DNA of 64,000 nt from Eutreptiella sp. 'Long Island Sound 2002' (taxonomy: Eukaryota > Euglenozoa > Euglenophyceae > Eutreptiales > Eutreptiaceae), in contig OZ038399.1 of assembly GCA_964036045.1 (NCBI GenBank), positions 23,859,544 through 23,923,543 on the forward strand. Reading direction: 5' to 3'. Both the position numbers and the translations under genes were made by a program. Below the pieces are notes generated by a model. The model searched no databases. It was not told where the DNA came from and saw nothing but the letters and a program-made list of their open reading frames with translations. Each line of letters begins with the position of its first letter. Position 1 is the first letter of the stretch. Below, piece after piece: positions 45,112-64,000 of the stretch.

Positions 45112-48100
45112 GGCTACACGCCCGCTGCATACTAGATTGGTAATTAGAATCCAACCTACTCAGCGGGTCAGCCGGTTGCAACGCGCCAGGCACCAACCTG
45201 ACCTCCACAACTAACCCGGTCTGCAGCAGTCTCAAAACCAATGCCCTCAGCAACTTCTGCTACCTTGACAACCACGTAGAGGCCCGCAGGGACAAAAACT
45301 GGCAAGCGGACACTTGCAAATCCGTGACCAACACCACATAACCCCAACCCAGCCGAACTGCCAACCTCACCAACCACACCAAGACCCAAAGCTCCGCGCT
45401 TTGCTGCGTGTGACGTGCAGGGGGGAATAACTTGGGAACTGACACCCGACAACCGCGGGACGAATGCTCCCCCCCCCTATACCTAATGGCGTCCAAAGCA
45501 GCGTCCCCGAACATCACACAATGGTGAACGGTCCACAAATCGGGCGTGGCAGATAGCGCACGAAACACTGCAAGTCGTGCCGGCGTTGGCGGCTCCCAAG
45601 TTTCCATACACCGTACGATGGCAGTACACAGTCCATGTAAAACCTTCAGTGGCGTAGGTCGTTCAAACCCCCCCCATCGGTCACAACAATAGCTCCCAGC
45701 GAGCAGCGGACACCCCCCTAAACAAGGCCTAAAGTGCCAATGGACGATGCCCAATGCTTTGGAGAGCAACCGGGAAGAAGGTCTCGACCGCGTGGCTAAC
45801 CTGAGCCAAATATTGAACATCTGGAGGAAAGCCTGTGGGTGTGAACGGATCGTGCGCACTCCTAAATTAATGTACTTCCCTAGGAAAAATATTTCCGTAA
45901 CCGGGTCCAGTGTACTCTTGCCCGACACAATAAACCCAGCCTCCTCCAAAGCCCGGACCACGCGCGCAGTGACAACACGCAACCGCACTGGATCCGGCCC
46001 CAGGATCAAAAAATCATCCAGGTAGTGGAACAGGATGTACCCCTCCGGGACCAGGGGGCGCACTATCCTCCCCAACGCCGTTTGACAGAACAGCGGGGAG
46101 TGCTTCCACCCAAACGGCATCCGCGACATACAAAACACCCTCTCCATCCCCTCCCAACGCATCCGGAACCGAAAGGCCCTCTCGTGCCGTCTAGGCAACT
46201 TAAAACTCCAAAAAGCATTATTGAGATCCACGTGTGTACAAAACAACGGCCTATCAGGCGGCCATTCCGCCAACCTCTGGGAGATTTGTTCCCAACCATC
46301 CAGCGAGAAAGACAACGGCTTATGCAAGCTCTCATTAAACTCAACTAAATTAAAAATGAGGGACACCTTCTCCGTGGATTTCGGGATCACAAACGGCCAG
46401 CAAGTCGCCCCCATGGGGCAACCTTCATCCATGATGGAAACAACTCCCTCACGCAGCAACCACTTAACCATGGGCAGCACCAAAGCCTCCCTATTAGATG
46501 AGCGACTTTCTCTCTCCAAATGAAAATCCGACACCGATGCTTCGAAATCAGGGGGCGCCAACTCACACCAGAGATCGTCGGAAATTGTGTAGTTACCCAC
46601 TGCTCCCAAACCCCTCTCCACCAATTGTGGGTCAACTTTTCCCACCTGTGGCACCGGGGACGTAGAAAGGTGCAAAAGAGCCTGCCAGGATTCAGCTGTA
46701 AATTCCGACAAAGCGCTAAAAGTTATATCCGGTGCGGACCGTAAACGAAAATCCTCACACGTAAGGAACAAACGCAGCACAAACAAATGGAGTCGCCAAA
46801 TGAGCAACAAAACCCCGCAAGACAATGCCTGGTGAAGCCAGGGCAAGAAAGAAAAGAACGCCTGCAAAAAGTGGACAAATAACGGAACTGGTTCCGAACA
46901 CACATACAAAAGGTCTGCCCTGGTCAGAGGGCGGGGCCCACCATCCGCCAATGTGATCACCCGCAGCGATCCCTGCGCCGAACTCAGCACTGGGCCACCA
47001 ACCGACGTGTCACAGGCAGATGGGGTTTCGCGAGTCACCCCCGCGGGGGGCGAATTTCCAGGCGACCCCCCCCCACCTCTGCCAGTCTCTATTCCGCCGC
47101 CCTTGCCCTTACACTCCGGCGGGGAACGCACAGCCACTTTGCTGGCAGGCCCGACTGGAGGCCCATCAGGATGCCGCCTCTTGGAGGCAGGTCGTCGGGC
47201 TTTTGCATTACCCAGGCCCACCTGCGCGCTCGTCGCATGATGCCGCTGGACAGATAAGGGACCGCCCAGACCAACGACTCGCCGCTTGGGCCTCGGTTTA
47301 TCAGCGCCGTCGACCTCTGCTGCGCCGCCTCTCGGTGCCTTGCCGGCTCCTTTCGATCGCAGCTTCCTCCTGCCGCTCCCGACGACCTGAGGCTTGGACC
47401 CCGGCGTGAATTGTTGAGGGCGTTCCCCTGGACCAGCGGACGGACTGGGTCCTGTGGTGATGTTACGGGCACTTGCTGTGGAGACATCTGAGTCCGAAGA
47501 CTCCGAGGGGACGGACGAAGAATCCGAATCAGACCCCACGTCGCCCACTTCCTTCCGATTCGCCGCCACATCCATATCAGGAAGAGATACCACAGGGCCC
47601 GCAGGCACCGGGACTGAGATCTCCATCGTCGCCTTCGTGGACATCCGCTCAGGGCTTGCATACATGGGGTCACCCCACAAGGCGGCCAACAGCACAGCCA
47701 AACGCTCATCAGAAGCCTGGCCACCAACAGGCCATGGAAGCACCAAAGCCCCAACCACCGCAGGGTCAGAGTAGCCCAAAGCGTACTCCAACGCTGTGGC
47801 CAGCCTCTTCCACCGCCCCCACCAGACGAAGTAAGCCACATTGGGGGAGCGGTGGAAGGCGGCCGCAGTGCCCCCCCGCAGGGAATGCCATCGGTGGCCA
47901 CTATATGGGGAATCACGGAGGAGGTCTGCGAAGATCCTCTCCACTGCCTCGACCCCTCCCCTAACCAACGGTTGACCTTCAGGGATGCAGCTGGCCTCGG
48001 CGTAGCATCTAAGGAATCGGACCCACGACCGTCCCCACTCATAAAGCGGCCGTCGCACTTCCCTGTGGCCACCAACTTTGGTAGTGACGAACAGGACCAC

Positions 48101-48340
48101 GGAATCACTCCCCAACCCCGCTGGCGTGATGGACACCGCTTCAGAGACTCGCAAGAAGAGGAGCCAACTGAGGCTCGCCAACGCTGCCACTGCCTGCTCA
48201 ACCGGCGAAATTGCTCTGGCCCACAGGAGACTCCGGCCCCAGGTATGGTTGCCCCGGTGTCGGTTTTCCAGACTTTGCAATCCTCCATTAGATGGCCTGA
48301 ACACAACCCGGGAGTAGTCTGACATGTTCTGCCGCCCGAA
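45038..48340 (-). pseudogene. Tyrosine recombinase - reverse transcriptase - RNase H polyprotein, interrupted
   Basis: Residues are counted from the first codon of the open frame at 48655 (a GTG, probably not the true start). The recombinase domain shows Arg169 in 'LFLRVSEAVSI', a lysine in 'VTTKVGG', His257 and Arg260 in 'WHSLRGG', and Tyr291 in 'GRWKRLATALEY', the expected catalytic set. About 300 residues of basic, Ser/Pro/Gly-rich linker follow. RT has Asp810 in 'VDLNNAFW' and Asp880-Asp881 in 'YLDDFLI'. RNase H has Asp1051 in 'FGDAALD', Glu1088 in 'SAEL', Asp1112 in 'VTDLQ' and, after an in-frame TAG at 45260-45262, the final Asp (45167-45169) in 'PGALQPADPLSRL'. The frame is the same on both sides of the TAG. 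Together with the upstream frameshift this points to a decayed copy. Readthrough or a sequencing error is an alternative for the TAG. Confidence 0.82.
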
Positions 48341-48563
48341 CCGCGGATACATACCCCCTGAGGGTGGATTTGGCCTGTCCCATGGAGACCCTTGACGCCA
48401 AGAATTCAGACAGCGTGTCAGTAAGCGGCGTCCGCAACGCTCTGGTACCCTCAAACTTCGCCACCGCGGACAGAGCGGAATGGTATCTCGATTGCGTCTT
48501 GGGGGCCCAACCACGAACGCCCACGGCCGCCACCCAAAACGATCCAACAGCCGCCATCGCCAT
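48288..48563 (-). pseudogene. Tyrosine recombinase, N-terminal core-binding part
   Basis: This frame reads 'GWAPKTQSRYHSAL', then 'LASRVSMGQAKSTLRGYV' and 'SAVRAAEHV'. That spacing of a T/S..Y helix and a 'STLRGYVSAVR' helix is typical of the SAM-like DNA-binding domain in front of tyrosine recombinase catalytic domains. The frame is the same as that of the gag zinc knuckle, separated from it by the TGA at 48705. It stops at 48288, and the catalytic domain continues in another frame, so a frameshift near 48290-48340 separates the halves. Confidence 0.6.
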
Positions 48564-48704
48564 TGCCGACCCCGCCGCCGCCGCGCTGAAGGTCGCTCTG
48601 GCGGCAGGTGAGGCCTCTTGGGTGGGGGTTGGACGCGTGGACCGGGAATCCTCACACCAACAGGGCCAACCCCACCCCGCCTTGCCGCAATGGCGGCGGT
48701 CCCG

Positions 48705-52612: not shown

Positions 52613-55600
52613 TCAGGGCCATGACCCACGGGCGGGACCCAGGGATCCGCCAGCCTTGGCGAGGCGCTCTGCCGAGACGTCGTCCTCGTGGTTCACGAAG
52701 CGGCCGGCGAGCCTGCGCGTCTCGCTACCGTACCGCCGCGGGTGGAGCATGTGCGCGTGCCACACCAGGTCGACGACCGCCGTCGGCACGAGCTCCTCCG
52801 CCGAGTGGTGGAAGTGGTCGAGGAAGGCGCGGTAGTCCGACACGGCGGCCCCCATCGCGGCCTCGGAGTCGTAAGCGGCGCGGTCCGCGACCATGTCCCG
52901 CATGAAGCGCTGGTGCCGCCGCATCGCCGCGACCAGGTCGAGCCCGAGCCAGGCCAAGGATCCCTCAAAGAGCGCGGTGGCGGCGCCAACGTCACCGGAC
53001 GCCACGGCGTACTCGTCCACTGGTGCAGGCACGTGGTCCACAGGCTGCGCGTGGTGCACCGCGCAGGCCTTGACGTAGCGGAGCGGGCTCAGCAGGTGCG
53101 TGCGCCACGCCAGCTCGACGGCGAGGGACGGTGTGACGCGTGCGCCGCCCTCCGCGAGGAGGGCGGCGTACTCACGCACGATGCACGCCAGCTCGTCGTC
53201 GTTCGCGGTCTCGAGCAGCGCGAGTGCGCGCTCGAAGAAGGCGAACTGCGCGTGCGCGACCGCGCCGAGGTAGGCGAGGTCGACGCCGCCACCCTTGGTA
53301 TCGCACAGGAAGAGGCCGTACCGCACGCCCCGCGCGAGCGTGCTCACGCCGTGCACGAGCGAGTTGGTGTGGGTCGTCGCGGAGCCCCGCGGCCGCGCCG
53401 GCTGCACGAAACCGTCGGCCGTCGCGAACGTGAGCCGGCCGCCGTCGTACTCGTCGTCGCCGTTGAGGGCCACCTGCATCGTGCGCTTCGAGAAATCGCA
53501 GTGGAAGGGCACACACTGGCCGACGGCGGCGGCGCGGCGCAGCCTGACGGCGTCGAACGGCCCGCCAAAGGCCGCCCGGAGTCGCTCGAGGGAGGCCGCG
53601 CCGATGAGTTGCTCGAGCGCCGACTCGGTGAGAGAGAGACGCAGGTCAAGCGCCGTGGTCCAGGGGCAGACCGCCACGCGCTCCTCGAGGGCCCCGATGA
53701 GCGCAGCGCACGCGGCAGCATCGAGGAGCTCCTCCTGATGGACGTACGGGTGCTCGTCGAGGCTGCCGCCCAGCTCCTCGACCAGTGCGGACGCGTCCTT
53801 CTGGGTGCCGTGCGCGCAAGCACCCGTGAGGAAGGCAAGCCCGGGCGAGCCTACGTGCGAGCCAAAGAGCGCGGGGATTGGGGAGGCGATGCAGCCGCCG
53901 CGCAGACGCAGCACAGAGTGGATAGTGGACTCCTTTCGTATGTTGTAGTCGGAGAGCGTGCGGCCATCCTGTAGTTGCTGTCCAGAAAAGATCAGGCGCT
54001 GCTGCTCCGGGGGGGTGCCCTCCGCCGACCACACGAACTCCTTGAACAGGTCGACCGTATCCGAGGGGTCTATTTGGATCGTAATCGTACTACCGTTGAG
54101 CAGTTTGCAGAAGACCAGCACGCCAAAGGCGTAGCGGTAGCCCTCCGCGCGGATGGCGTTCGCGATCTCGCTGTGGGAGCCAAGGCACAGGTGCTGCAGC
54201 GCGATGTCAGCGTCGGTGCGCCACGGGATCGCACACGCCCGAGCCAAGAGTGCGCCGACGGCGCCGGAGTCAAACACCTCTTGCTTGTGCGTGCAGGCGA
54301 GGACGCGCAGCGAGGCCACCGCGCACGTCTCCAGGGCCGGGACGCCGCCCGCGAGAAGCGCCACGAAGAGCGCAATGGCGTCGGCGTTGACGAGGGCCTC
54401 GTGAAAGCGCCCGTCGTCCTTCTGAGCGATCTTGGCCAGCACGGACGCGCCGGCGTCCATGATCTCGCTGACCGAACTGGCGCGCACGAGGGCAACAAGC
54501 GCCGGGCAGCATGTGTCGGCGATCGCCATGTTCACGACGTCGCTCTCGCTTCCGAAGCGCGCGGCCAGCGTGCGCACAGCGGCCGTCTGCTGGGGCACAC
54601 TGACGCTGGACATCGCGGCGATGAGCGGCGGGATGCCAAGCTCCGTCACGATCGTCGGCCGGTTCTCTTGCTTTTCATACAGAAAGGCAAGCAGTGGGGC
54701 GCAGTACGGTCCTCCGGCGTAGTGACCAGCCACGAGGGGTCCGATCGTGTTCTCCCTCACCGCAACGGAGTGGCACATGCTGTACTCCGTCATCAGCGTC
54801 AGAAGCACCCAAGCAGCCAAATCGATCAGCTCGGGCCGGGTGCGCACGAGGCAAGCGAGTGGCCGGACGCTATGCTCCCGAAGGGCGAGGAACACGGGCA
54901 CCTGGAAAAGCCTGGTCCCCTTGATACGGCGTATGTAGTTATATAAACGTGACGTGTCGGTCAACGACGCAGCAAGTGCCTTCAGCGACCGCTCAAGGTC
55001 CGTGCCCGCTCGCAGCGCTTCTGCGAAGTCGACCACCTTCTCCGTAAGCCCCTTGACCGCTGCTTCAGCCTCGTTCCCACTCAGTCCTTCGACCTCCGTG
55101 GCCAGGAGCCGGGCCTCCGCCAGGACGTTCTCTTCGACCAGGAGCCGGGCGGCGCTGAGGAGCGGCGCACCCAGCGTGGCGAGATCGGGCTCGTGGCCCG
55201 TAGGCGGGTTGATCAGCGCGAGCTCCCCGGCGATCTCCGTGAACGCGGGCCGCTCCGCCGGCGCCATCGCCCACGTGCGCTGCAGCAGCGCCCACAGCGC
55301 GTCCGGGCAGCCATCGGGCGGCCGGAGCCGCTCGCCGGCGCACACGCGCTCCGCGACGGCCTCGTTGGACTCGATGAAGGCGTAGGGCACGTCGCCGCCC
55401 GTGAGCATCTCCCACGCCGTCACGCCGAAGGCCCACACGTCCGACTTCTCGGAGAAGCGGCGGCGCCGCAGCGCCTCCGGCGGCATCCAGCGGAAGGGTA
55501 CGTCCTCGCCCTGGACCGTCGCGTGGGTCCGGTACATGCGGTCGACCGCGAGGCCGAAGTCGGTGATCTTGACCACCGTGGCGCCGGGGTCATGCGGGTC

Positions 55601-56236
55601 GAAGGCGAAGACCAGCAAGTTGCGCGCCGCGAGGTCGCGGTGCACGATCCCCGCGCCGCTGAGCGCGATCATGCCCCCGCAGACCTGCTGCAGCATCGCC
55701 AACTTGTGCGGCAGCGTGACCTCGTCCTCGCGGTCCTCAAGGAACTTGCTGAGCGAGCCGTGCGGGGCGAGCTCCGTGACAAGCAGCTGCTCGGGGCCCT
55801 CGGTGCACAGGCCGAGGTAGCGCACCAGGCCGGGGCTGCGGCCGAGCCTCACGAGTTTTGCCGCCTCCTCCTCGCACGAGCCGCCGGCGCGCATGCGCAG
55901 CACGGCAACCGGCTGCGCATGGCCTCGGAGCGTGCCCCGGTGCACCTCCTTGAAGCTGCCCGTCGCGAGCACGGCGTCCTCGAACGCGATCGCGGAGCGC
56001 GGCACGAGCTTGAAGTTCGCGGAGAGCCACTCCTCGATCGAGTTGCGCAGCGCGTGGTTGGGCGTGAGCGTGGGGTTGGGAAGGACCGCCTGCGTGAGCG
56101 GGCTCGTGTTGTGGGAGGCGAGCCACTGCTGGATGTGGACGCGGTCGTAGCTGTGCCCGTCGGCACAGACGACGGGGTCGCGCATGAGCTCGCGCCCGAT
56201 GGGGCACAAGAAAGAGGGCGGCGCAGATGCGTCCAT
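52613..56236 (-). CDS. U-box / kinase-like / ARM-like / ubiquitin / 2OG-Fe(II) oxygenase / GRDP-like fusion protein, 1207 aa
   Basis: One intronless frame from an ATG (56234-56236). Residues 6-75 are a U-box ('[20 protein letters not shown]', '[12 protein letters not shown]'), the E2-binding fold of ubiquitin ligases. Residues 85-345 are a tyrosine-kinase-like domain: glycine loop 'ATGSF' (91-95), HRD at 199-201 in 'HRDLAARN', DFG at 226-228, 'RWMPPEAL', 'SDVWAFG'. The VAIK lysine position is Leu113, so it may be a pseudokinase. Residues about 350-690 are helical and armadillo-like. Residues 706-781 are ubiquitin-like, ending LRLRGG at 776-781, then Cys782; Lys63 is kept (Lys768) and Lys48 is Gln753. 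Residues about 840-985 are a prolyl-4-hydroxylase-like 2OG-Fe(II) domain with His912, Asp914, His962 and Arg972. Two GRDP-like motifs follow: '[14 protein letters not shown]' (1041-1054) and '[14 protein letters not shown]' (1156-1169). It probably acts as a cytosolic or nuclear ubiquitin ligase with added modifying activities. That role is inferred from domains only. No signal peptide or membrane segment is seen. Confidence 0.88.
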
Positions 56237-56935: not shown

Positions 56936-57687
56936 CGATTGGGCTTGGCGCAGCGGTTTGTACGCGCGCGCGTCCCAGGGGATTGGGCTTGGCGCAGCGG
57001 TTTGTACGTGCGCGCGTCCCGGGAATGGGGTTGGCGCAGCGATTTGTACGCGCGCGCGTCCCGGGGGTTTGTGCTTGGCGCAGCTATTTGTACGCGCGCG
57101 TGTCCCAGGGATTGGACTTGGCGCAGTCGCTAGTACGCGCGCACGTTCCGGGGGATTGGACTTGGCGTAGCGGTTGGTACGCGCGCGTGTCCCGGGGGAT
57201 CGGGCTTGCCGCAGCGGTTTGTACGCGCGCGCGTCCCGGGGGATTGGGCTTGGCGCAGCGGTTTGTACGCGCGCGCATCCCAGGTATTGGGCTTGGCGCA
57301 GCGGTTTGTACGTGCGCGCGTCCCGGGCAATTGGGCTTGGCGCGGCGGTTTGTACCAGCGCGCGTCCCGGGGAATGGGCTTGGTGCGCCGGTTCGTACGC
57401 GCGCGCATCCCAGGGGATAGGGCTTGGCGCAGCGGTTTGTGCACGCGCGTGTCCCGGGGATTGGGCTTGGCGCAGCGGTTTGTACGCGCGCGCATCCCGG
57501 GGGATTGGGCTTGGCGCAGCGGTTTGTACGCGCGCGTGTCCCAGGTATTGGGCTTGGCGCAGCGGTTTCTACGGGCGCGCATCCCGGGAGATTGGGCTTG
57601 GCGTGGCGGTTTGTACGCGCGCGCGTCCCGGGGATTGGGCTTGGGGCGGCGGTTTGTACACGCGCACGTCCCAGGCAATTGGGCCTA
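56936..57687 (+). repeat. 43/44-bp satellite, forward-oriented part
   Basis: The monomer on this strand reads GGGCTTGGCGCAGCGG, then TTTGTACGCGCGCGCG, then TCCCGGGGGATT or a variant. Each monomer has an alternating purine-pyrimidine segment of about 12-14 bases (TACGCGCGCGCG) and usually a CCCGGG. The orientation reverses at about 57688. Open frames on both strands are artefacts of a stop-free unit. Confidence 0.92.
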
Positions 57688-58405
57688 GCCCCATCCCCCG
57701 GGATGCGCGCGCGTACAAACCGCTGCGCCAAGCCCCATCCCCTGGGGCGTGCGCACGTACAAACCGCTGCGCCAAGCCCAATCCCCCGGGACGCGCGCTG
57801 GTACAAACCGCTGCGCCAAGCCCAATCCCCCGGGATGCGCGCGCGTACAAACTGCTGCGCAAAGCCCAATCCCCCGGGACGCGCGCGCGCATACAAACCG
57901 CTGCGCTAGGCCCAATTGCCTGGGACGTGCGCGTGTACAAACCGCCGCCCCAAGCCCAATCCCCGGGACGCGCGCGCGTACAAACCGCCACGCCAAGCCC
58001 AATTTCCCGGGATGCGCGCCCGTAGAAACCGCTGCGCCAAGCCCAATACCTGGGACACGCGCGCGTACAAACCGCTGCGCCAAGCCCGATCCCCCGGGAC
58101 GCGCGCGCGTACAAACCGCTGCGCCAAGCCCAATCCCCCGGGATGCGCGCGCGTACAAACCGCTGTGCCAAGCCCAATCCCCGGGACACGCGCGCGTACA
58201 AACCGCTGCGCCAAGCCCTATCCCCTGGGATGCGCGCGCGTACGAACCGGCGCACCAAGCCCATTCCCCGGGACACGCGCTGGTACAAACCGCCGCGCCA
58301 AGCCCAATTGCCCGGGACGCGCGCACGTACAAACCGCTGCGCCAAGCCCAATACCCTGGATGCGCGCGCGTACAAACCGCTGCGCCAAGCCCGATCCCCC
58401 GGGAC
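57225..58405. repeat. Large inverted duplication in the 43/44-bp satellite
   Basis: The arm about 57225-57687 is the near-exact reverse complement of about 57905-58370, variant monomer by variant monomer. Examples are GGCAATTGGGCCTAG at 57675 against CTAGGCCCAATTGCC at 57906, and the rare GTAGAAACC / GGTTTCTAC monomer in each arm. The spacer is about 215 bp. Identity at the level of rare variants shows one inversion-duplication event rather than chance meeting of two arrays. Confidence 0.8.
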
Positions 58406-60502
58406 GCGCGCGCGTACAAACCGCTGCGCCAAGCCCCATCCCCTGGGGCGTGCGCACGTACAAACCGCTGCGCCAAGCCCAATCCCCCGGGACGCGCGCT
58501 GGTACAAACCGCTGCGCCAAGCCCAATCCCCCGGGATGCGCGCGCGTACAAACTGCTGCGCAAAGCCCAATCCCCCGGGACGCACGCGCGCATACAAACC
58601 GCTGCGCTACGCCCAATTGCCTAGGACGTGCGCGTGTACAAACCGCCGCCCCAAGCCCGATCCCCGGGACGCGCGCGCGTACAAACCGCCACGCCAAGCC
58701 CAATTTCCCGGGATGCGCGCCCGTAGAAACCGCTGCACCAAGCCCAATACCTGGCACACGCGCGCGTACAAACCGCTGCGCCAAGCCCAATCCCCCGGGA
58801 TGCGCGCGCGTACAAACCGCTGCGCCAAGCCCAATCCCCGGGACACGCGCGCGTACAAACCGCTGCGCCAAGCCCTATCCCCTGGGATGCGCGCGCGTAC
58901 GAACCGGCGCACCAAGCCCATTCCCCGGGACGCGCGCTGGTACAAACCGCCGCGCCAAGCCCAATTGCCCGGGACGCGCGCACGTACAAACCGCTGCGCC
59001 AAGCCCAATACCTGGGATGCGCGCGCGTACAAACCGCTGCGCCAAGCCCCATCCCCCGGGACGCGCGCGCGTACAAACCGCTGCGCCAAGCCCCATCCCC
59101 TGGGGCGTGCGCACGTACAAACCGCTGCGCCAAGCCCAATCCCCCGGGACGCGCGCTGGTACAAACCGCTGCGCCAAGCCCAATCCCCCGGGATGCGCGC
59201 GCGTACAAACTGCTGCGCAAAGCCCAATGCCCCGGGACGCGCGCGCGCATACAAACCGCTGCGCTACGCCCAATTGCCTGGGACGTGCGCGTGTACAAAC
59301 CGCCGCCCCAAGCCCAATCCCCGGGACGCGCGGGCGTACAAACCGCCACGCCAAGCCCAATCCCCCGGGATGCGCGCGCGTACAAACCGCTGCGCCAAGC
59401 CCAATCCCCTGGGATGCGCGCGCGTACAAACCGCTGCGCCAAGCCCCATCCCCTGGGATGCGCGCGCGTACGAACCGGCGCACCAAGCCCATTCCCCGGG
59501 ACGCGCGCTGGTACAAACCGCCGCGCCAAGCCCAATTGCCCGGGACGCGCGCACGTACAAACCGCTGCGCCAAGCCCAATACCTGGGACACGCGCGCGTA
59601 CAAACCGCTGCGCCAAGCCCAATCCCCCGGGACGCGTGCGCGTACAAACCGCTACGCCAAGCCCAATCCCCCGGGATGCGCGCGCGTACAAACCGCTGCG
59701 CCAAGCCCAATCCCCCGGGATGCGCGCGCGTACAAACCGCTGCGCCAAGCCCAATCCCCGGGACACGCGCGTGCACAAACCGCTGCGCCGAGCCCAATCT
59801 TCCGGGATGCGCGCGCGTACAAACCGCTGTGCCAAGCCCAATCCTTGGAACGCGCGCGCGTACAATCCGGTGCGCCAAGCCCCATCCCCCAAGACGCGCG
59901 CGCACAAACCGCTGCGCCAAGCCCAATCCCCTGGGACGTGCGCACGTACAAACCGCTGCGCCAAGCCCAATCCCCGGGACACGCGCGTGCACAAACCGCC
60001 GCGCCAAGCCCAATTGCCCGGGATGCGCGCGCGTACAAACCACTGTGCCAAGCCCAATCCTTGGAACGCGCGCGCGTACAATCGGGTGCGCCAAGCCCAA
60101 TCCCCCGAGACGCGCGCGCACAAACCGCTGCGCCAAGCCCAATCCCCTGGGACGTGCGCACGTACAAACCGCTGCGCCAAGCCCAATCCCCGGGACGCGC
60201 GCTGGTACAAACCGCCGCGCCAAGCCCCATCCCCCGGGACGCACGCGCGTACAAACCGCTGCGCCAAGCCCCATCCCCTGGGGCGTGCGCACGTACAAAC
60301 CGCTGCGCCAAGCCCAATCCCCCGGGACGCGCGCTGGTACAAACCGCTGCGCCAAGCCCAATCCCCCGGGATGCGCGCGCGTACAAACCGCTGTGCCAAG
60401 CCCAATCTTCCGGGATGCGCGCGCGTACAAACCACTGTGCCAAGCCCAATCCTTGGAACGCGCGCGCGTACAATCCGGTGCGCCAAGCCCAATCCCCCGG
60501 GA
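57688..60502 (-). repeat. 43/44-bp satellite, reverse-oriented part
   Basis: Same monomer in opposite orientation (CAAACCGCTGCGCCAAGCCC, AATCCCCCGGGA, then CGCGCGCGCGTA). A higher-order unit of roughly 660-700 bp is visible: the marker CAATTGCC occurs at 57913, 58614 and 59271, each followed by the same order of variant monomers (GCCGCCCC, then GCCACGCC, then GTAGAAACC in the first two). The array ends at about 60502, where the 40-bp satellite begins with no transition. Confidence 0.92.
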
Positions 60503-62711
60503 CAATCCCTGGGTGTTCTGTTTGATACTCGTGTCCTCCACGCCCTCGATGGGTATTCTATGTCATACTCGTGTCCTCTAGGCCATTGATGGTGATTCTA
60601 TATTATGCTCGTGTCCTCTAGGCCATTGATGGTGATTCTATATCATACTCGTGTCCTCCAGGCCCTTGATGGGTATTCCATATCATACTCGTGTCCTGTT
60701 GTCCAGGCCCTTAATGGCTATTCTATCTCATACTCGTGTCCTCCAGGCCCTTGATGGCTATTGTATATCATACTTGTGTCCTCTAGGCCCTTGATGGGTA
60801 TTCTATATCATACTCGTGTCCTCTGGGCCATTGATGGTGATTCGATATCATACTCGTGTCCTCTAGGCCATTGATGGTGATTCTATATCATATGAGTGTC
60901 CTCGAGGCCCTTGCTGGGTATTCTATATCGTAGTTGTGTCCTCTAGGCCCTTGATGGGTATTCTATATTGCACTCATGTCGTCTAGGCCCTTGATGGCTA
61001 TTCTATATCATACTTGTGTCCTCTAGGCCATTGATGGTGATTTTATATCATACTCTAGTCCTCTAGGCCCTTGATGGGTATTCTATATCATACTCGTCTC
61101 CTCTAGGCCATTGATGGTGATTGTATATCATACTCGTGTCCTCTAGGCCCTTGATGGCTATTCCATATCATACTCGTGTCCTCTAGGCCATTGATGGTGA
61201 TTCTATATCATACTCGTGTCCCCTGAGCTCTTGATGGGTATTCTATATCATTCTTGTGTCCTCTAGGCCATTGATGGGTATTCTATATTATACTCGTGTC
61301 CTCTAGGCCATTGATGGTGATTCTATATCATACTCGTGTCTTCTACGTCCTTGTTGGGTATTCTATATCATACTCGTGTCCTGTTGTCTAAGCCCTTGAT
61401 GGCTATTCTATCTCATACTCGTGTCCTCTAGGCCCTTGATGGCTATTGTAAATCATACTTGTGTCCTCTAGGCCCTTGATGGGTATTCTATATCATACTC
61501 GTGTCCTCTAGGCCATTGATGGTGATTCTATATCATACGCGTGTCCTCTAGGTCCTTGCTGGGTATTCTATATCATACACGTGTCCTCCAGGCCCTTGAT
61601 GGCTATTGTATATCATACTTGTGTCCTCTAGGCCCTTGATGGCTATTCCATATCATACGGGTGTCCTCTAGGCCATTGATGGTGATTCTATATCATACTC
61701 GTGTCCTCTAGGCCCTTGATGGTGATTCTATATCATACTCGCGTCCTCTAGGCCCTTGATGGGTATTCTGTATCATACTCGTGTCCTCGAGTCCATTGAT
61801 GGTGATTCTATATCATACTCGTGTCCTCTGGGCCCTTGATGGGTATTCTATATCATACTCGTGTCCTCTGGGCCATTGATGGGTATTCTATATTATACTT
61901 GTGTCCTCTAGGCCATTGATGGTGATTCTATATTATGCTCGTGTCCTCTAGGCCATTGATGGTGATTCTATATCATACATGTGTCCTCTAGGCGCTTGAC
62001 GGGTGTTCTGTTTCATACTCGTGTCCTCTAGGCCCTTGATGGGTATTCTATATCATACTTGTGTCCTCTAGGCCCTTGATGGGTATTCTATATCATACTC
62101 ATGTCCTCTAGGCCATTGATGGGTATTCTATATCATACTCGTGTCTTCTACGTCCTTGATGGGTATTCTATATCATACTCGTTTCCTCTAGGCCCATGAT
62201 GGTGATTATATATCATACTCGTGTCCTCTAGGCCCTTGATGGGTGTTGTGTTTCATATTCGTGTCCTCTAGGCCCTTGATGGGTATTCTTCACCATACTC
62301 GTGTCCTCAAGGTCCCTGATGGTTATTCTATATCATACTCGTGTCGTCCAGGCCCTTGATGGGTATTCTATATTGCACTCATGTCGTCTAGGCCCTTGAT
62401 AGCTATTCCATATCATACTCGTGTCCTCTAGGCCCTTGATGGCTATTCTATACCATACTCGTGTCCTCAAGGCCCTTGATGGCTATTCGATATCATTCTC
62501 GTGTCGTCTAGGCCCTTGATGGGCATTCTATATATAACTCATGTTCTCTAGGCCCTTGATAGCTATTCCATATCATACTCGTGTCCTCTAGGACCTTGGT
62601 GGCTATTGTGCTTCATACTAGTGTCCTCTAGCCCCTTGATGGTTAATCTACATTATACTCGTGTCGTCTACGCCCTTGATGGCTATTCTATTTTTCTACT
62701 TGTGTCCTCGA
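60503..62711. repeat. 40-bp satellite
   Basis: Monomer: GTGTCCTCTAGGCCCTTGAT followed by GGGTATTCTATATCATACTC (40 bp), about 55 copies. Two main types alternate irregularly: 'CCCTTGATGGGTATT' and 'CCATTGATGGTGATT'. An insertion variant (GTCCTGTTGTC) occurs at 60695 and 61380 with similar neighbouring monomers after each, suggesting a higher-order unit near 685 bp. AT content is higher than in the other satellites. Stops occur in the frames and no coding role is suggested. Confidence 0.93.
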
Positions 62712-64000
62712 GGCTTGGCTCGTCACACATCTCCAAATTGTGCCCCTACTTTTAGCCCGTAGATTTGGCACCCACAGGGGGCCAAAACCTACAACAATGG
62801 GTGGCCCGGATGCGTTGTAGTGTGGTGGGGTATTTATCAAAAAACCTTGTCAAAGGTGGTCCTCTTGGCAAAGACAACTTGCCGACATTTTTGCAAGTTA
62901 GGGTGGTCCACTACTTGGGTTTCATATTCACACCTAGTGAGCCGCCAACGACTGGCACCGTCTCAAGCACTAGAGGAGGCCTTGCCGGAGCCTAAGGCGG
63001 GGCTAGAACACGGAGGCAAGGCCCCCCCCTCCGGTCTCAATAGCATTGTTCCCGGTCGGCTGTGACAACTAGAGTGCCGAAATATGAGCCAATCTTTCTG
63101 AAAATTACCGGGATGGCATGGCTTGTCACACATCTCCAAATTGTGCCCCTACTTTTAGCCTCTAGATTTAGCACCCCATGAGGGCCGGAACCTATAACAT
63201 TGGGTGGCCCGGATGCTTTTTAGTCTGGTGGGGTGCTTTGTCAAAAAAACTTGCCCAAAGCGGTCCTCATGGCAGAGACAACTTACCGATGCTTTTGCAA
63301 GTTAGGGTGGTACGCTACCTGGGTGTCATATTCACACCTCGTGAGCCGCCAACCACTGGCGCCGTCTCAAGCACTAGGGGGAGGCCTTGCCGGAGCCTAA
63401 CGCGGGGCTAGAAAGCGAAGGCAAGCCGCCCCTCCGGTCTCAATGGCGTTGTTCCCGGCCGGCCGTGACGACTAGAGTGCCAAAATATGAGCCAATCTTT
63501 GCGATTCCTAAAATTACCCGGTTGGCATGGCACACATCTCCAAATTGTGCCCCTACTTTTAGCCTGTAGATTTAGCACCCCTTGAGGGCCGGAGCCTACC
63601 CCCCCCCCCCTTGTCTAAGCTACGCCAAAGTACCAAATTAATACGGTCCCTACGCCTACTGTAGCTTGGACACGGGCGTAGCTTGCGCGCGACATATACA
63701 ACTACCGACACACACGTAAATGAGCGCATAGTATGAGTGCACCTCAACCTCCACGCAACCTCCATGCACAAATACCCCCAAAATCAGAGTTATGGCAAAC
63801 ACTCACAACAAATGTGTACACGACCCTATGTACCCAGCAAATTCGTCAAACCCATGTCTTATGTGGTTGCACTAAATTTGGTACCGAATTAAAATTAGGT
63901 ACCAAATTAATACGGTCCCTACGCCTACTGTAGCTTGGACAAGGGCGTAGCTTAGACAAGGGGGGGGGGGGGTACAACAATGGGTGGCCCGGATGCTTTT
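62712..64000. repeat. 404-bp tandem repeat, three copies, third interrupted
   Basis: Copies begin with CACACATCTCCAAATTGTGC at 62724, 63127 and 63531 (spacing 403 and 404). Shared landmarks include GGGTGGCCCGGATGC, GTGAGCCGCCAAC, a G/C-rich stretch before 'CTCAATAGCATTG' or 'CTCAATGGCGTTG', and ATATGAGCCAATC. The third copy is split by the insertion at 63600-63972 and continues after it to the window end. The short plus-strand frames in copies 1 and 2 are not conserved as coding. Confidence 0.9.
63600..63972. mobile_element. MITE-like element, 373 bp, with TIRs and TAC target duplication
   Basis: Left end: 11 C then TTGTCTAAGCTACGCC (63600-63626). Right end: GGCGTAGCTTAGACAA then 13 G (to 63972), the exact inverse. 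The host bases TAC occur on both sides (63597-63599 and 63973-63975), while the uninterrupted copy of the 404-bp repeat has CCTACAACAATGGG at the same place (62785-62798), so TAC is a 3-bp target duplication. Inside, a segment of about 54 bp starting TACCAAATTAATACGGTCCC is repeated near both ends (63630 and 63898). No transposase is encoded, so it must be non-autonomous. Confidence 0.82.

Follow-up and report, generated by a model that had tools for sequence, protein, structure and literature searches.

Does a protein that carries a ligase, a kinase, a ubiquitin and an oxygenase in a single reading frame act as one chain, or is it made in one piece and then cut? This question is raised by P0001, a gene on the minus strand of a 64,000-nucleotide stretch of DNA (the window; C22:23859544-23923543, contig OZ038399.1) from Eutreptiella sp. 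'Long Island Sound 2002', whose assembly comprises 2.28 Gb in 2205 contigs. Its product joins a U-box, a protein kinase, an ARM-like region, a ubiquitin, a putative 2-oxoglutarate (2OG)-Fe(II) oxygenase and a GRDP-like domain. Sequence comparison leads us to favour, as the probable answer, a ubiquitin-fusion precursor that is cut into two enzymes rather than one oxygen-sensing ligase chain.

A deubiquitinase would cut P0001 after translation, behind Gly781, at the point that corresponds in the DNA to the boundary between 53894 (Gly781) and 53893 (Cys782); in relatives with a SUMO-like domain a ULP/SENP-type protease would cut instead. Two products would result: i) a 781-residue U-box/kinase/ARM protein with the ubiquitin at its end and a free C-terminal diglycine, and ii) a 426-residue 2OG oxygenase/GRDP-like enzyme whose first residue is Cys782. 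The ubiquitin would thus be a cutting site yielding two enzymes from one message, and possibly also a folding aid, as has been proposed for the ubiquitin-ribosomal fusions. At a guess, such coupled production would place both products in a common pathway. We infer the cut because LRLRGG is intact at the joint, because the two glycines are kept at joints of this type and because a SUMO-like domain can replace the ubiquitin at the same residue. Deubiquitinases rapidly cleave ubiquitin fusions where the two parts meet, at the last glycine, and C-terminal changes block this; uncut ubiquitin-ribosomal fusions are unstable (both from the accessible part of PMC8122580).

The ubiquitin-oxygenase joint

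In P0001 the ubiquitin ends in LRLRGG and Cys782, the start of a CIASP motif, follows directly, so that the next residue is not Pro. Relatives carry the same module after either a ubiquitin or a SUMO-like domain, starting at the same residue. Joints were counted in 84 of 95 proteins, P0016-P0026 being left out as kinase-only matches, and 49 of the 84 have a CIASP-type Cys motif. Ubiquitin stands directly before it in 23 proteins, of which 22 keep Gly75-Gly76 (GG) and one, P0015, has GS. A SUMO-like domain stands there in 13, with GG in 12 (P0052 lacks it); P0075, where Arg instead of Cys follows the SUMO-like GG, makes the SUMO-like total 13/14. In the three SUMO-like proteins tested (P0047, P0058 and P0061), Pfam Rad60-SLD scores well above ubiquitin. 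The other 13 of the 49 have no full ubiquitin-like domain before CIASP (four end in GG, apparently as truncated domains, and nine do not) and are excluded from the pooled count. Elsewhere in the 84 proteins GG is kept in 1/15 full ubiquitins and 1/18 SUMO-like domains.

Pooled retention is therefore 35/37 at CIASP-type joints versus 2/33 elsewhere, a comparison whose p-value is only indicative, as the sequences are related. The significance test used 3/33; on inspection the first-domain GG of P0037 turned out to be an alignment error, hence 1/15. The controls exclude ubiquitin pieces shorter than 60 residues (3 rows) and the SUMO-like piece of P0095, in which the tail is not reached, and P0094 was scored as having lost GG even though its tail is missing. 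Clustering of the 23 joint ubiquitins at 60% identity gives 10 clusters, and in every one of them GG is present in one member or more. With a mean identity per position of 70%, G75 (23/23) and G76 (22/23) are among the best-kept residues, and Lys63, Lys29 and Arg72 drift. That the SUMO-like version has an identical joint suggests that it is important at which residue the oxygenase begins.

A sister class of proteins helps to separate the joint from the enzyme behind it. P0012 and P0014 have U-box, kinase, ubiquitin and 2OG domain in the order of P0001, with both GG and CIASP lost, and most of P0078-P0094, many of them LRR proteins, have a SUMO-like domain followed by a 2OG domain. Their oxygenases start with GEW-, GKW- or LPW-type sequences, without CIASP, and GG is gone except in P0080. 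These oxygenases are matched in blastp by the P0001 module (14/17 of P0078-P0094, plus P0012 and P0014), and a 2OG domain also follows in most of the SUMO-like controls and in two of the ubiquitin ones, which come from U-box-kinase proteins. Two types of joint, GG-CIASP and sealed, thus exist before related oxygenases, and GG tracks CIASP and not the oxygenase as such, which makes the sister class a tight control.

Other ubiquitins of the same genome have met different fates. In L030 LRLRGG is followed by GKKRKKK, a partner that we take to be S27a, whereas L044, a ubiquitin-2OG gene with a matching copy on C27, has neither GG nor CIASP. Two loci, L046:3804-5753 and L047:4218-6044 (on C6 and C21), encode a DUF4139 protein, assigned by Pfam in L046 and by eye in L047, with a near-canonical internal ubiquitin that ends in LRLRGD in both copies. 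With Asp in place of the last glycine, this would be a natural uncuttable ubiquitin insertion.

One chain or two

How widely is the arrangement of P0001 shared? All six parts recur in unchanged order (U-box, kinase, ARM, ubiquitin, oxygenase and GRDP) in P0002, with 63% identity over 98% coverage, on a 3980-base contig where the frame begins within the U-box. P0008 keeps this order without a recognisable ARM block, and in P0003 ARM is not matched and the protein stops shortly behind the oxygenase core, without GRDP. U-box and kinase are combined in P0013 and, in the same genome as P0001, in L041 and L042. P0057 has U-box, ubiquitin and oxygenase without a kinase; P0067 has a kinase, a weak UBA-like match, ubiquitin, oxygenase and GRDP; and P0027, P0028 and P0069 have a plain N-terminal ubiquitin with the oxygenase module. 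The named relatives that share more than the kinase are P0010 of Chrysochromulina and P0054 of Prymnesium polylepis, both of which we take to be haptophytes. P0030, P0031 and P0067 are labelled in the database just as ubiquitin or ribosomal protein L40e. A PARP catalytic domain is fused to the oxygenase-GRDP module, without ubiquitin, in the Chrysochromulina protein and in P0065.

A first-pass annotation of this DNA had described P0001 as a single protein and proposed a search for homologues of the same order; these exist on other contigs (P0002 and, in part, P0008 and P0003), and both the architecture and its conservation stand. Its further idea, that ligase, ubiquitin and oxygenase work together on one chain, has become less likely given LRLRGG before Cys782 and the GG kept at CIASP joints. 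Such an uncut enzyme, with ligase, kinase and oxygenase around a built-in ubiquitin-binding domain and ubiquitin transfer linked to the oxygen or 2-oxoglutarate level, seems doubtful to us, although it has points in its favour. P0002 and P0008 share the domain order, and P0012 and P0014 keep it with GG lost, as the LRR proteins do with a SUMO-like domain; the hydrophobic patch (Leu8, Ile44, His68 and Val70) is intact in the P0001 ubiquitin, with Lys48 lost; and Giardia has a ubiquitin fusion that stays uncut (accessible part of PMC8122580). However, P0001 has the cuttable form, GG then Cys, which the sealed relatives do not have, and many relatives have the oxygenase module without ligase or kinase. 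According to the same part of that source, moreover, an uncuttable N-terminal ubiquitin can mark a protein for degradation. It is also conceivable, but unlikely, that the GG is not selected for cutting but simply remains from polyubiquitin and SUMO genes that recombined recently at a hot spot. Polyubiquitin arrays do lie on C15 of this genome and the upstream partners vary widely, yet G75 and G76 have been retained in joint ubiquitins whose mean identity per position has fallen to 70%, two different modifiers end at the identical residue, and GG does decay in the ubiquitin-like domains of this group, as the DUF4139 copies, L044 and the sister class show. Least probable is a chimera, a misassembly or a dead gene. 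In favour of this stands a second copy on C19, which comprises the 3′ part of the gene and is broken by a TAG in frame and an internal deletion of 2.9 kb. Against this, the same order occurs on other contigs (P0002, P0003 and P0008), the frame of P0001 is full and carries a codon-position signal, and over residues 853-1207 it differs from the C19 copy by nonsynonymous (dN) and synonymous (dS) values of 0.044 and 0.127 (dN/dS 0.34). In the C19 copy, 50 bases that match the flank upstream of the gene adjoin the 3′ part across the deletion, so the unit was probably duplicated whole.

Several observations weigh against the two-enzyme precursor as well. Arg72 and Arg74 are kept in just 15/23 and 19/23 joint ubiquitins, which might weaken recognition, and the ubiquitin of P0001 is itself divergent (47/76). 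At the joint of P0015, which carries the complete module, GS stands in place of GG, and the SUMO-like domain of P0052 lacks GG. Since the proteins are related, the counts depend on one another (10 clusters), and most of the SUMO-like controls belong to a single family. The cysteine at 782 is kept even in proteins with no ubiquitin-like domain to expose it (P0010, P0029, P0043, P0065 and P0071). Among proteins combining ligase, kinase, ubiquitin and oxygenase, 4/6 look cuttable and 2/6 sealed; since the sealed ones, P0012 and P0014, lack GG and CIASP, uncut chains can evidently persist. It is, besides, an assumption that cutting is as efficient behind a ubiquitin preceded by 700 residues as behind one at the N-terminus, and processing of fusions has been validated in few organisms (accessible part of PMC8122580).

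What could the two-enzyme precursor mean in these algae? A broader and quite tentative version of it, for haptophyte-like algae, would have ubiquitin and SUMO as interchangeable cutting sites for deubiquitinases or SUMO proteases before one oxygenase module, the N-terminal Cys of the freed oxygenase being read as an oxygen signal by PCO/ADO-type dioxygenases, the freed partner (U-box proteins, kinases, SPRY and others) bearing an activatable ubiquitin tail, and the sealed sister class staying whole, so that the joint itself would be a cut/uncut switch. A cysteine N-degron was considered as the main explanation and demoted: exposure is not the sole role of Cys782, because the residue is kept in module proteins without a ubiquitin-like domain. 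The genome has two PCO/ADO-type cysteine dioxygenase loci, with which a signal by cysteine oxidation would be conceivable. N-myristoylation from an ancestral MGC start was dropped, as none of the 64 proteins whose starts were compared begins with MGC.

The gene and its domains

P0001 forms a frame whose length and codon-position composition are beyond chance: in 300 first-order Markov sequences of equal composition the longest open run was 604 codons, and the G+C content of its three codon positions is 0.71/0.49/0.88. The features are listed below.

Features of P0001, in window coordinates
Feature	Position	Strand	Evidence or remark
Complete open reading frame, P0001	52613..56236	minus	1207 residues, unbroken, single terminal stop
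U-box, residues 5-74	56015..56224	minus	Pfam PF04564, E 4e-20
Protein kinase, residues 89-339, with HRDLAARN and DFG	55220..55972	minus	Pfam PF07714 (PK_Tyr_Ser-Thr), E 8e-62
Lys96, glycine-rich loop (GSFK), WNK-like lysine	55949..55951	minus	Lys in 12/12 aligned relatives
Leu113, at the usual VAIK lysine position	55898..55900	minus	aligned to VAVK of Src-Abl ancestor
ARM-like helical region, residues 346-700	54137..55201	minus	profile matches
Ubiquitin, residues 706-781, end LRLRGG	53894..54121	minus	Pfam 709-779, E 1.8e-21
CIASP, opening residues of the oxygenase module	53879..53893	minus	conserved start
Conserved module start and linker, residues 782-850	53687..53893	minus	
Putative 2OG-Fe(II) oxygenase core, residues 851-985; H912, D914, H962, R972	53282..53686	minus	
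Region with WRTH (1044) and WHAH (1159) motifs	52616..53281	minus	
GRDP-like, residues 1098-1170	52727-52945	minus	Pfam E 1.2e-10

The first-pass annotation had read from the letters a continuous frame of 1207 codons and this order of domains, had pointed to an HxD...H...R signature and had suggested domain searches. The frame and the order agree with our results, to which we add the strand, minus, that the annotation had not given. U-box, kinase, ubiquitin and GRDP-like domain each exceed the Pfam cut-off in a whole-protein search, the U-box with 72.1 bits against a curated cut-off of 21.4. The ARM-like region is weak by Pfam (E 0.2 in the whole protein, and 0.0037 for the piece 340-705, below the curated cut-off) and is clearly matched when a three-sequence profile is compared with the PDB (designed armadillo proteins 1e-25, Vac8 1.7e-9). 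The ubiquitin is identical to canonical ubiquitin in 47/76 residues; besides the hydrophobic patch it keeps Lys63, and Lys48 is replaced by Gln.

As to the oxygenase, the residues of the signature, H912, D914 and H962 of the HxD...H iron triad and R972, the Arg for 2-oxoglutarate, are all invariant in a 32-row alignment, which bears out that part of the earlier reading. No Pfam match was obtained for the core at E values up to 10, in a search where the HMMER filters discard most weak matches. The best of its weak matches are to PiuC/PKHD hydroxylases (NCBIfam 0.013, PDB 9ghl 0.006), and hhalign gives a probability of 66% for E. coli YbiX. The assignment as a 2OG-Fe(II) oxygenase is thus a putative one, drawn from motifs and weak profiles. 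Its profile weakly resembles those of PKHD-type hydroxylases of the PiuC/YbiX kind along Y-x-GG ... H ... RY, but just about 55 residues align, and the P0001 oxygenase is without a Pfam match. Ten further loci of the genome (L017-L026), eight on C22:16.99-22.21 Mb, the contig of the window, and one each on C1309 and C1290, have identical printed oxygenase cores of the same type as that of P0001. L045, an oxygenase locus of the L017-L026 type and the one locus checked, has EF hands.

The kinase lacks the usual VAIK lysine. At this position its relatives have Leu, Ala or Cys, and Lys in 0/12; the table of kinase lysines holds 14 relatives, of which 12 were counted, P0067 being unaligned and L043 gapped there. 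Compared with the PDB, the best 60 of 834 rows are tyrosine kinases (EGFR, Src-Abl, TYK2, Abl, Eph, FAK, ROS and PTK7), with no WNK chain among these 60, and a short N-lobe search of the PDB for WNK chains gave no match. WNK kinases are nevertheless alike in missing the VAIK lysine and having a lysine in the glycine-rich loop, and Lys233 of WNK1 presumably occupies the same loop position as Lys96 of P0001. In WNK1, Lys233 from beta-2 takes over the role of Lys72 (accessible part of PMC4718504). The P0001 kinase differs from the WNK kinases in being nearest to tyrosine kinases and to Pfam PK_Tyr_Ser-Thr, with HRDLAARN. Given the loop lysine in all 12 relatives and the precedent of WNK1 Lys233, the P0001 kinase may well be active through a WNK-like arrangement, though nearest to tyrosine kinases in sequence. 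In P0008, P0013 and P0014 a lysine lies one residue after the VAIK position, which weakens the WNK-like point for these three.

Around the gene, very long tandem arrays with units of 21, 11, 23, 44 and 40 bases take up much of the window, at 4919-42045 and 56937-62714, and many long frames overlap the repeats in these areas. The minus strand also carries a retroelement at 45260-48655, a frame of 1131 residues that matches reverse transcriptase.

Known ubiquitin fusions and U-box ligases

Among the matches listed, literature searches for this architecture, for haptophyte ubiquitin-oxygenase fusions and for SUMO-oxygenase fusions gave no description, in a coverage that leaves most subscription journals outside. 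Internal-ubiquitin fusions have been described for Bigelowiella and Guillardia, ubiquitin-actin and other ubiquitin fusions occur in algae, and ubiquitin-NiSOD has a wide but patchy distribution, mostly in phototrophs (accessible part of PMC6332867). The words oxygenase, kinase and SUMO are absent from the main text of that source.

What distinguishes the P0001 family is that a ubiquitin or a SUMO-like domain stands at the identical joint before one enzyme and retains the glycines needed for cutting, which a sister class has lost. If the precursor reading is true, the use of a modifier as a cutting site would be a device to co-produce signalling enzymes. It also carries a warning: long multidomain proteins with an intact internal ubiquitin need to be checked before they are read as single machines.

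The ligase half has its nearest parallel in the PUB family of plants, in which a U-box is combined with a kinase domain or with ARM repeats. P0001 shares these combinations; to our knowledge, no ubiquitin, oxygenase or GRDP part occurs on the chain of a plant PUB ligase, in contrast to P0001. For the joint, the parallel is with ubiquitin fusions, which are textbook knowledge for two ribosomal proteins. In the precursors ubiquitin-S27a/eS31, ubiquitin-L40 and ubiquitin-NiSOD, ubiquitin is likewise in frame with an unrelated protein. Unlike in these, the ubiquitin of P0001 is flanked by a U-box/kinase/ARM part on one side and a 2OG-GRDP part on the other, and the module is also found behind SUMO-like domains. 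P0001 would thus be a variant of the ubiquitin-fusion precursors, which are known as a kind, in an arrangement that appears to be new.

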